A DNA stretch of 60,448 nt from Hyphomicrobiales bacterium (GTDB lineage: Bacteria > Pseudomonadota > Alphaproteobacteria > Rhizobiales > Aestuariivirgaceae). Under the pieces are notes generated by a model. That model was not told the origin of the DNA and did no database searches. It was given only the letters and a program-made list of their open reading frames with translations. Numbering within the stretch: the first letter of the stretch is position 1; every line of letters starts with the position of its first letter. Shown here one piece after another: positions 36,123 through 38,962 of this stretch. Location of the stretch: the NCBI GenBank assembly GCA_025359265.1, contig JANYHB010000025.1:1-60448 (forward strand), given 5' to 3'. A program made the translations under genes and the position numbers.

Positions 36123-36947
36123 TCAAGCGAGTTGCATGGCACCGTGAAAGGCTTCGTCGAAGGTCACCGGTAAGGCCGCCGCTGCCTCTGTAACCCTGTG
36201 CCAATAAATAATCTCAAATCTACCATCCATATGTTCGGCCAGGGCAGAACAACTCTCCACCCAATCCCCATCATTCAAATAATGAATATCTCCAATCATC
36301 CGGTCGGCCGGTGTATGCACATGGCCACAGATTACGCCTTGGCAACCGCGCTTTTCGGCTTCGCGCACCACAATCTCTTCATATCGCGCAAGAAACTCCA
36401 CGGCTTTTTTCACCTTGAATTTCAGATAAGCCGAGAGCGACCAATAGGGTAATTTAAGCCAGCGGCGCACATGGCTCACACCGCCACTCAGCCACATGGC
36501 CCATTCATAGGCTTCATCACCAAACTTCGATAACCAAGGTGTGAAATAGATTATGCCATCAAATTTATCGCCGTGCAGAACCAGATATTTCTTGCCCGTG
36601 GCGGATACATGGATCGTCTCATGCAAAACGGCCACCCGGCCAAACCGCAAATTTATAAAATCACGAAAATTCTCGTCGTGATTTCCTGGTATATAAATGA
36701 GCTTCGAGCCTTTGCGCGCCTTGCGCAACAGTTTCTGGATCACATCATTGTGGTGTTGATTCCAAACCCACTTTTTCTTCAATGACCAGGAGTCAATCAA
36801 ATCTCCAACCACATAGAGCTGGTCACTTTCGGTGTGGCGCAAGAAATCCAGCAAGGCTTCGGTTTGCGCGCGCTTGGTGCCGAGGTGGACGTCAGAAATG
36901 AAAATGGCTCTATAATGCGTCGGCGATTTCGGCTTTGGGTTCATCAA
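36123..36947 (-). CDS. plcP: PlcP-type phospholipase C (metallophosphoesterase)
   Basis: The 274-residue calcineurin-type phosphoesterase has the full metal-site set: FISDVHLG, VVGDLIDSW, PGNHDENF, VLHGDKFDG and CGHVHTPAD. It resembles LpxH, but this subgroup includes PlcP of Sinorhizobium meliloti, which cuts phosphatidylcholine to diacylglycerol under phosphate limitation. Two facts support PlcP over LpxH: it is divergent from btaA-btaB, which consume diacylglycerol, and three PHO-box-like repeats lie 36 to 64 bases before its ATG. Its identity as PlcP is inference from family and context. Confidence 0.8.
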   Translation of the reverse strand: MMNPKPKSPTHYRAIFISDVHLGTKRAQTEALLDFLRHTESDQLYVVGDLIDSWSLKKKWVWNQHHNDVIQKLLRKARKGSKLIYIPGNHDENFRDFINLRFGRVAVLHETIHVSATGKKYLVLHGDKFDGIIYFTPWLSKFGDEAYEWAMWLSGGVSHVRRWLKLPYWSLSAYLKFKVKKAVEFLARYEEIVVREAEKRGCQGVICGHVHTPADRMIGDIHYLNDGDWVESCSALAEHMDGRFEIIYWHRVTEAAAALPVTFDEAFHGAMQLA

Positions 36948-36982
36948 GATAGCTCCGCTGGCACAGCTAAAGCCAGATTCGG

Positions 36983-37011
36983 ATGACCGTTCAATGACAT
37001 CGAACTGACAG
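36983..37011 (-). promoter_or_regulatory. PHO box (three direct repeats)
   Basis: Read on the minus strand towards plcP, three seven-base units occur every 11 bases: CTGTCAG (37005-37011), ATGTCAT (36994-37000) and CGGTCAT (36983-36989). Each matches the PhoB half-site CTGTCAT at six of seven positions. The 7+4 spacing is that of known PHO boxes. PhoB would activate plcP from here, and perhaps btaA across the divergent gap. Confidence 0.7.
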
Positions 37012-37012
37012 T

Positions 37013-37030
37013 CTGTTGCGGCTTTGTCAT
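37013..37030 (+). promoter_or_regulatory. Weaker PHO-box-like site facing btaA
   Basis: CTGTTGC, four bases, TTGTCAT lie in the orientation of btaA, ending 47 bases before its ATG. The second unit matches CTGTCAT at six of seven, the first at four of seven. It is only suggestive alone, but btaA is PhoB-controlled in studied relatives. Confidence 0.4.
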
Positions 37031-37077
37031 ATTCGGAAATTAGTGCGAGCCAATTGTAATAGGGCTTGGGCGATTCG

Positions 37078-38310
37078 ATGACACTAGCATCAGATGTTGA
37101 ACAAAGCGGCCATTTGCTTTCTCAGGCGGTTCATCGAAGCAAACGTTTTTCGATTGATGGCATCCTGGAAAGAACCTTCACCTATGCCTTCAGCGGGTTG
37201 GTTTATCCGCAAATTTGGGAAGACCCCGTTGTTGATATGAAAGCCATGCAAATTGAGCCTCATCATCACATTGTGACAATCTCATCAGGTGGCTGCAATG
37301 CGTTGAGCTATTTAACGGCTGGCCCGGCCAAGATCACTGCAGTTGATCTTAACCACGCTCATGTTGCTCTGGTGAAACTAAAGATTGCTGGCGTTAAAAA
37401 TCTTCCGGATTGGGATACGTTTTATCGCTTCTTCGGTGCGGCTGATGATGCCGCCAACGTCTCGGTGTATGAGCGCTTTCTGCACGCAAAACTGGACGAG
37501 AAAGCCCGCCGCTATTGGAATAAGCGCAATGCCTTTGGGTTCAAGCGCATCAATCAATTTAAAAACAATTTTTATCGCTTCGGCTTGCTCGGCCGCTTTA
37601 TTGGCGCTGGCCACCTGCTCGCAAAAATTTATGGACGCGATATTTCCAAATTGGTTGAATGCAAAAGCCTGGAAGAGCAACGCCGGGTTTTTGACGCCGA
37701 ACTGGCGCCGCTGTTCGAGAAAAAAGCCGTCAAATGGTTGACCAATCAGCGTGCTTCCCTATTTGGTTTGGGCATTCCACCTGCGCAATATGATGCACTG
37801 GCTGGTGACCGCAAGATGATCGACATTTTGCACCAACGCCTGGAAAAGCTGGCTTGCGGCTTTCCCATGTCTGAAAACTATTTCGCATGGCAGGCCTTTG
37901 GGCGGCAATATGCGCCAGACGCGAGCGGAATGTTGCCACCATATTTGCAGTATGAGAATTTCACTCGGTTGCGGGCGGCCGTTGATAACCTTACCATGCA
38001 GCACGGTTCGGTGACAGATGCTTTGGTGCAAGCGCCAGCCGCCAGCGTTGATCGTGTCGTTCTTCTGGATGCCCAAGATTGGATGACAGATGCGCAACTG
38101 AATGAGCTGTGGTCAGCAATCAGCCATGCCGCAGCCCCGAGGGCGCGGGTGGTGTTCCGCACTGCGGGTGTAGAAACAATTCTTCCTGGTCGCGTGTCGG
38201 CCGCCACTTTGAACCTGTGGAACTATTTGGATGAAGAATCGCTGGTTTTAGGACAGCAAGACCGATCGGCCATCTATGGCGGTTTCCATGTCTATGAATT
38301 CAAAAGCTGA
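37078..38310 (+). CDS. btaA: Betaine lipid synthesis enzyme BtaA (DUF3419)
   Basis: The 410-residue enzyme moves the 3-amino-3-carboxypropyl group of S-adenosylmethionine onto diacylglycerol, giving diacylglyceryl-homoserine. FTYAFSGLVYPQIWEDPVVDMKAM and TISSGGCNALSYLTAGPAKITAVDLNHAHVAL form the start and SAM-binding region, and RVVFRTAGVETILPGRVS is in the C-terminal part. Length is right for the family. I prefer the ATG at 37078 to an upstream TTG at 37066. The last 23 bases overlap btaB. Confidence 0.92.
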   Translation: MTLASDVEQSGHLLSQAVHRSKRFSIDGILERTFTYAFSGLVYPQIWEDPVVDMKAMQIEPHHHIVTISSGGCNALSYLTAGPAKITAVDLNHAHVALVKLKIAGVKNLPDWDTFYRFFGAADDAANVSVYERFLHAKLDEKARRYWNKRNAFGFKRINQFKNNFYRFGLLGRFIGAGHLLAKIYGRDISKLVECKSLEEQRRVFDAELAPLFEKKAVKWLTNQRASLFGLGIPPAQYDALAGDRKMIDILHQRLEKLACGFPMSENYFAWQAFGRQYAPDASGMLPPYLQYENFTRLRAAVDNLTMQHGSVTDALVQAPAASVDRVVLLDAQDWMTDAQLNELWSAISHAAAPRARVVFRTAGVETILPGRVSAATLNLWNYLDEESLVLGQQDRSAIYGGFHVYEFKS

Positions 38311-38962
38311 CGCAACGCGCCCGCAAAGCGAAACGATGGATGGCATCTACCGCTTTCAGCGCCACATTTATGATGTGACGCGGCGCTATTATTTGCTGGG
38401 CCGCGATGATTTGTTGGCCGGACTGGCGGTGCCCGCAGGGGGCAGCGTTTTAGAGATTGGCTGCGGCACTGGGCGCAATTTAGTTGGCGTTGCGAGGCGT
38501 TTCCCGTCAGCAAAATTATTTGGTCTGGATATTTCTGAAGAAATGCTCAAAAGCGCCGGTTCGGCCATGGTTCGCCATGATTGCTTAAATCGCACGCGAT
38601 TGGCTTGTGCCGATGCGACGGATTTTTCGGCTCAAGATCTATTCGGACAACCCACATTTGACCGGGTATTCTTCTCATACACCTTGTCGATGATTCCAAA
38701 TTGGCAACTGGCTGTGGAGAATGCGTTAAACTGTTTGGGGCCCGGTGGCCAGCTTCACGTTGTGGATTTTGGACAAGGCGATGGCCTGCCCAAGACATTT
38801 CGCCGCGGCCTGTTTGCGTGGCTCCGGATTTTTCACGTGAGCCCGCGCGATCAACTGGCCTCACATTCACGGCACTTGGCTGCCACCAAGGCAATGGTGT
38901 TTTCGCATAAAAGCAGATTTCGAGATTATACGTGGCAAATAAAAATTACCAAAGTAACTTAA
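38288..38962 (+). CDS. btaB: Betaine lipid N-methyltransferase BtaB
   Basis: The 224-residue SAM-dependent methyltransferase adds three methyl groups to diacylglyceryl-homoserine to give DGTS. VLEIGCGTGRNLVGVARRFP is the SAM motif near residue 55, followed by LFGLDISEEML and HVVDFGQGD. The pair with btaA identifies the function. In-frame ATG codons at 38276, 38288 and 38294 are all possible starts; 38288 has GGCGG just upstream. The 3' end overlaps the small convergent gene by four bases. Confidence 0.9.
   Translation: MSMNSKADATRPQSETMDGIYRFQRHIYDVTRRYYLLGRDDLLAGLAVPAGGSVLEIGCGTGRNLVGVARRFPSAKLFGLDISEEMLKSAGSAMVRHDCLNRTRLACADATDFSAQDLFGQPTFDRVFFSYTLSMIPNWQLAVENALNCLGPGGQLHVVDFGQGDGLPKTFRRGLFAWLRIFHVSPRDQLASHSRHLAATKAMVFSHKSRFRDYTWQIKITKVT

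Follow-up and report, generated by a model that had tools for sequence, protein, structure and literature searches.

A divergent plcP and btaA-btaB locus with a probable role in phosphate-starvation membrane remodelling, in a genome in which the lipid A genes sought were not found

We analyzed a stretch of 60,448 nucleotides (hereafter the window; contig JANYHB010000025.1 of assembly GCA_025359265.1, positions 1 to 60,448) from a Hyphomicrobiales bacterium of the family Aestuariivirgaceae, whose genome spans 2.65 Mb in 73 contigs and is 99.94% complete. Our subject is a locus of three genes, plcP, btaA and btaB, and the short gap between the first two. A preliminary description of the sequence had placed a PlcP/LpxH-type phosphoesterase gene head-to-head with btaA-btaB, and the open reading frames were confirmed at the following positions and strands, together with two PHO-like features in the gap:

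36123..36947, minus strand: plcP, phospholipase C-type metallophosphoesterase (calcineurin-like), 274 aa from the listed start; Metallophos PF00149, 4.3e-11; motif blocks (273-aa numbering) SDVHL 17, GDLID 47, GNHDE 87, LHGDK 123 and GHVHT 207
36983..37011, minus strand, towards plcP: tandem PHO-box-like site, three heptamers 11 bp apart
37013..37030, plus strand (the btaA strand): weaker PHO-like match, 10/14
37066..38310, plus strand: btaA, predicted S-adenosylmethionine:diacylglycerol 3-amino-3-carboxypropyl transferase; DUF3419 PF11899, 5.2e-111, 372 bits
38276..38962, plus strand: btaB, class I methyltransferase, predicted from its domain match and its likeness to the Sinorhizobium meliloti protein to trimethylate diacylglyceryl-homoserine to diacylglyceryl-trimethylhomoserine (DGTS)

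The listed start of plcP is a TTG at 36947, and the codon that follows it, an ATG at 36944, is the likelier true start. The listed start of btaA is likewise a TTG, at 37066, with an in-frame ATG at 37078 as the likely start. For btaB, alignment with the methyltransferase encoded after btaA in S. meliloti (48% identity) begins at residue 7, the ATG at 38294, which is probably where translation starts. From either start btaB overlaps the end of btaA, by 17 nt from ATG 38294. The gap from which plcP and btaA diverge is 118 bp when measured between listed starts and 133 bp between ATG starts. A DUF3419 protein followed by a methyltransferase is also the order of the S. meliloti pair. The plcP protein has the metallophosphoesterase five-block motif with GNH(D/E), and its Pfam matches were to general calcineurin-like phosphoesterase domains only.

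In S. meliloti, PlcP is described as acting on phosphatidylcholine and related lipids, with the released diacylglycerol being converted to DGTS by BtaAB, under the control of PhoB (PMC3972451). Identities of the window proteins to the S. meliloti sequences (L073, L148) were 50% for PlcP, 52% for BtaA (a match in two pieces) and 48% for BtaB, and the same pathway under PhoB is proposed here. The two differ in layout; CP090106, an S. meliloti record titled pSymB (3.7 Mb), has plcP and btaA ~390 kb apart, while in the window they are adjacent. Orthology and layout suggest that the pathway can be carried over to the window organism, and we consider it very probable that the locus is a phosphate-starvation membrane-remodelling locus in which plcP and btaAB flank a tandem PHO box. 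At low phosphate, phosphorylated PhoB would bind the tandem box between the genes and turn on plcP, and probably btaAB, together. PlcP would then cut the phospho-headgroup off phosphatidylcholine- or phosphatidylethanolamine-type lipids, yielding diacylglycerol and a phospho-alcohol that would feed phosphate back to the cell. BtaA would add a homoserine head, derived from S-adenosylmethionine, to the PlcP-derived diacylglycerol, and BtaB would methylate the product three times to give DGTS, a phosphorus-free look-alike of phosphatidylcholine. The enzyme activities, the response to starvation and PhoB control in both directions are inferred from this comparison; the choice of substrate and regulator is assumed, which counts against the proposal.

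The evidence for control by phosphate comes from the gap. Scored against a PHO consensus, CTGTCATNNNNCTGTCAT, with 14 scored positions, the gap contained two overlapping in-register 12/14 matches (36994-37011 and 36983-37000), 49 and 38 bp upstream of the plcP ATG, so that plcP has upstream and facing it, twice in tandem, the PHO box expected of a Pho regulon member. These were the best two matches to that consensus in the whole window. Among 5000 simulated gaps, 2 reached the score of the pair and 0 that of the triple. An alignment of the four divergent plcP-btaA gaps available to us had heptamer-like halves at the same place in 4/4, and the GTCAT half of the weaker 37013..37030 match aligned with GTCAC in the other three. 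The tandem box and these weaker related half-sites support the earlier proposal that plcP and btaAB share one control region, from which the two would be switched together.

Other observations weigh against this proposal. The site was weaker in the other divergent gaps, where the best matches were 10, 11 and 11 of 14 in L003, L009 and L063, and the fractions of shuffles that equalled the plcP-side score were 0.12, 0.04 and 0.0025. Scoring was extended to the regions upstream of 24 genes in relatives, of which 23 could be scored and one was too short, and most were not distinct from shuffles; beyond the divergent gaps only the btaA upstream of G049 stood out (12/14). The upstream of S. meliloti plcP scored 10/14, with 0.13 of shuffles as good. 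Since activation of that gene by PhoB has been described (PMC3972451) and it nonetheless scores at chance level, we consider the PHO score to be insensitive and the window site to be strong.

A variant of the proposed mechanism, not exclusive of it, is that the gap holds two independent promoters and that PhoB controls plcP only. The two 12/14 matches lie on the minus strand, facing plcP, and the match that faces btaA reaches only 10/14. Half of that match, however, has a GTCAC counterpart in the alignment of each of the three other divergent gaps, and the btaAB genes of S. meliloti are reported to be PhoB-regulated (PMC3972451). We consider this variant unlikely, although it is the alternative that keeps the most weight.

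Physical linkage of plcP and btaAB is already known, and the layout in the window is a variant and not a new system. Among plcP clusters of marine bacteria, in which putative Pho boxes are reported, type 1 is represented by Phaeobacter sp. MED193, where btaA and btaB lie downstream of plcP (PMC4796936). The window resembles this type in the three genes, their linkage and the Pho boxes, but its btaAB genes do not follow plcP; the two sides point in opposite directions from a common gap, and no agt is adjacent. No divergent plcP-btaAB layout is described in the text passages of that article that were consulted.

To place the layout among relatives, we used 58 genomes, drawn one from each sampled family of the order and supplemented by further members of the window's family. 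PlcP-type proteins were present in 40/58 and DUF3419 proteins in 17/58. All 17 genomes with btaA had plcP, versus 23/41 of the others (Fisher p 0.0005, uncorrected for kinship), and the two genes were neighbours in eight of the 17. Several arrangements were seen: divergent in the window's genome and G163; btaA-btaB-plcP in G029, G036 and G049, with agt after plcP in the latter two; plcP-agt-btaA-btaB in G001 and G025; and convergent in G014, with a partial agt match. In the remaining 9/17 the genes were unlinked on the contigs examined, some of which are short. Two loci from metagenome-assembled genomes, L009 and L003, were also divergent, the btaA of L003 being cut by the contig end. The divergent layout was thus seen only in two genomes of the window's genus and two near relatives. 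The preliminary description had presented the locus as a compact one, and the adjacency is real; the linkage, on the other hand, is not new (it is in PMC4796936 and in 8/17 btaA genomes), and only the divergent layout is unusual. That the head-to-head arrangement is not due to chance is indicated by its recurrence in G163, L009 and L003 and by the gap containing the window's two best PHO-box matches.

The survey also yielded several separate observations. At L009:10001-10709, plcP matches fall in two frames with ~30 residues missing, which is either true decay or an assembly error. G029 has two plcP genes, one adjoining btaAB and the other agt (C3 and C18; L065 and L066), and they lie on different branches of the tree described below. 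A second, distant DUF3419 protein (25% identity) is encoded on G036:C115 (L058), with no btaB match in that stretch, and similarly distant DUF3419 proteins occur in Shinella, Rhizobium and Roseinatronobacter plasmid records.

In three congeners of the window organism (G068, G104 and G186), the gene after plcP encodes a GT4 glycosyltransferase like Agt, and btaA was not found in these genomes. The GT4 assignment was made by Pfam for the G068 copy, to which the G104 and G186 copies are 87-89% identical. Both pairings, plcP-btaAB and plcP-agt, therefore occur within one genus. Together with the cluster of Methylosinus trichosporium (PMC9239053), these plcP-agt clusters are like the window in that PlcP would feed diacylglycerol to a head-group enzyme next door, and unlike it in having a glycolipid glycosyltransferase where the window has betaine-lipid synthases.

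That plcP stands with agt where btaA is absent speaks against tying PlcP to DGTS. It also favours a second alternative, in which the esterase is a PlcP-type lipase whose main partner is another diacylglycerol user, or whose substrate is another lipid (e.g., a sphingolipid phosphate), plcP and btaAB being mere neighbours. A family-specific motif, HGDKFD, which is common to 6/6 tree rows of the window family's group and was found in 0/48 rows elsewhere (which have a residue other than K), might alter the choice of head group, and a sphingolipid cluster in the genome includes a metallophosphoesterase gene of its own. Set against this are four assemblies (window, L003, L009 and G163) in which plcP and btaAB are paired divergently, a further six families in which the two are linked in some other orientation, and the lack of any match to an agt-like glycosyltransferase near plcP in those four assemblies or anywhere in the window. 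We regard this alternative as improbable, and favour the supply of PlcP-derived diacylglycerol to BtaAB.

Public annotation often labels such proteins, including that of S. meliloti, UDP-2,3-diacylglucosamine diphosphatase. The NCBIfam models for LpxH matched the window esterase at residues 13-128 only and far under cut-off (TIGR01854, 50.9 of 190.35 bits; NF003743, 55.9 of 134 bits). The single match in the S. meliloti record (49.8% identity over 93%) adjoins luxI/luxR-type genes. We take that protein to be the characterised SMc00171, from its being the sole match in the record and from its luxI/luxR neighbours.

References for a maximum-likelihood tree were E. coli K-12 LpxH, the S. meliloti homologue and the 14 proteins that exceeded the LpxH cut-off in a search of 60 genomes from the phylum. 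Second, shorter copies of L016, L017 and L071 (L050, L051 and L053), identical copies, copies of the window protein and proteins <180 aa were excluded, and the plcP of L009, with its two frames and ~30 missing residues, was not among the rows. One long branch in the 69-row tree parts 15 LpxH rows from 54 PlcP-type rows (100/100; 100% of 200 bootstrap trees), as read from group counts either side of the branch. The window and S. meliloti proteins are both on the PlcP side, though the S. meliloti row is not the one nearest to the window protein. Five genomes (G204, G211, G226, G245 and G248) have both types, and LpxH and PlcP-type proteins are therefore paralogues. Less favourably, some LpxH rows drew a long-branch warning from the tree program, and the placement of the window protein within the PlcP side was loose, its only starred partner set being with L003.

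The third motif block divided the rows in the same way, with GNRD in 15/15 LpxH rows and GNHD in 54/54 PlcP-type rows, that of the window included (53/54 within the scanned stretch; the last, L094, has GNHD further in). In the division of five-block metallophosphoesterases into LpxH and LpxH2 by Opiyo et al. 2010 (PMC3087551), the H-to-R change in this block is described as LpxH-specific. With its GNH(E/D) the window protein sorts with LpxH2; LpxH, by contrast, has GNRD and acts in lipid A synthesis. In addition, LpxH2 of P. aeruginosa is reported to have failed to replace E. coli LpxH (PMC3087551). We infer that LpxH2 is PlcP.

The genome context agrees with this assignment. LpxI, LpxB and LpxC had no match in the window's genome (LpxA, LpxD and LpxK were not searched by profile), nor was a lipid A pathway found there that would supply an LpxH with its substrate. 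A search for a second PlcP/LpxH-like protein in the genome also found none. In a relative of the same order (G029, L134), the gene order is rseP-bamA-lpxD-fabZ-lpxA-lpxI-lpxB-gltA; the corresponding place in the window's genome, on contig C15 (L128:7790-12032), reads rseP-bamA-fabZ-gltA, without lpxD, lpxA, lpxI and lpxB. Only 21 bp separate bamA from the longest fabZ frame there, and 7 bp separate fabZ from gltA. Pfam confirmed bamA, fabZ and gltA in L128 and lpxD, lpxI and lpxB in L134, with the fabZ search matching both; the remaining names were given by position and the start of the sequence. LpxC was present in 167/199 genomes of the order and in 0/7 of the window's family.

Because of the missed hidden Markov model cut-offs, the tree, the diagnostic residue and the missing lipid A genes, we read the esterase as PlcP and not LpxH. 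This had been put forward in the preliminary description, which asked for a phylogeny and for a genome search for a separate LpxH or LpxI; it named membership of the LpxH clade, in a protein that was the genome's only UDP-diacylglucosamine hydrolase, as the contrary outcome. The results given above support its assignment, and that outcome was not obtained. Alternatively, the esterase could be LpxH, which hydrolyses UDP-2,3-diacylglucosamine in lipid A synthesis, and could adjoin btaAB by accident. In favour are the common annotation, the solved structures that best match the protein, which are LpxH (top E 2.7e-7), and the failure to find another protein of this type in the genome. We reject this alternative as extremely improbable on the cut-offs, the tree, GNHD in place of GNRD, the failure to find LpxC, LpxB and LpxI, and the loss of lpxD, lpxA, lpxI and lpxB from their conserved place.

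The PlcP-BtaAB gene set is a known one, but its host is unusual, since none of the genes sought for lipid A, the usual lipid of the outer membrane, had a match there. Our literature searches on lipid A loss in this order listed nothing pertinent beyond a general survey (PMC3087551). Although LpxC-less, the window's family has kept LptD in 7/7 genomes and LptF/G-type permeases in 7/7. Across the 32 LpxC-less genomes of the order sample, some of which are incomplete assemblies (down to 56%), LptD was found in 25 and LptF/G in 25, versus 28/28 for each in 28 LpxC-bearing controls. LpxC, LptD and LptF/G all had no match in the five genomes of family f51 (G051, G088, G122, G151 and G176), possibly reflecting complete loss of lipopolysaccharide, and were also missing together in G066, a small genome of f21. 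The genes of interest in the window's genome are as follows:

C22 (L127:7731-9989), C17 (L142:9412-10479) and C39 (L143:8637-10010): LptD and two LptF/LptG-type permeases
L142:3786-12574: sphingolipid cluster of fatty acid hydroxylase, acyl-AMP ligase, epimerase-like, serine palmitoyltransferase, LptG-like, metallophosphoesterase and GNAT-like genes

The LptD and LptF/LptG-type genes are thus on three contigs, whereas in G029 lptF/lptG-type genes directly precede lptD. Their proteins passed Pfam cut-offs and missed those of the NCBIfam equivalog models (LptD, 103 of 683; LptG, 199 of 240; LptF, 111 of 230 bits), and for this reason their names, and any cargo, are putative. The serine palmitoyltransferase beside the LptG-like gene scored 570 bits (cut-off 500); a further protein of the cluster, which has no Pfam match, looks GNAT-like. 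Matching sphingolipid and permease genes were found together in G163, G068 and G055, the last being from another LpxC-less family. In G022, of the window's family, there were permease and phosphoesterase matches only, with no serine palmitoyltransferase in the stretch, and the permease is thus beside sphingolipid genes in 3/4 window-family members examined. The sphingolipid region of Caulobacter is described as having second LptC, LptF and LptG copies that are proposed sphingolipid carriers, and Sphingomonas koreensis is named there as a bacterium that has no lipopolysaccharide and depends on sphingolipids (PMC11324152). For the window's family, an outer leaflet built on sphingolipids is plausible. 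We suggest, tentatively, that the PlcP-BtaAB locus may serve a Hyphomicrobiales-like family, probably free-living, that has lost lipid A altogether while keeping LptD and LptF/G, with the Lpt bridge carrying sphingolipids to the outer leaflet.

These data settle a common annotation error by which the protein is given the name of a lipid A enzyme; in the present genome, the lipid A genes that were sought had no match. In the locus one has a compact PhoB switch that can be tested and may work in both directions, and the user of PlcP-derived diacylglycerol, btaAB or agt, varies within a single genus. A family that keeps LptD without lipid A genes also provides a way to ask what else the Lpt bridge carries. 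If our reading is true, the switch would let the cell swap most of its glycerophospholipid for DGTS at low phosphate, in an envelope that may also be without lipid A.

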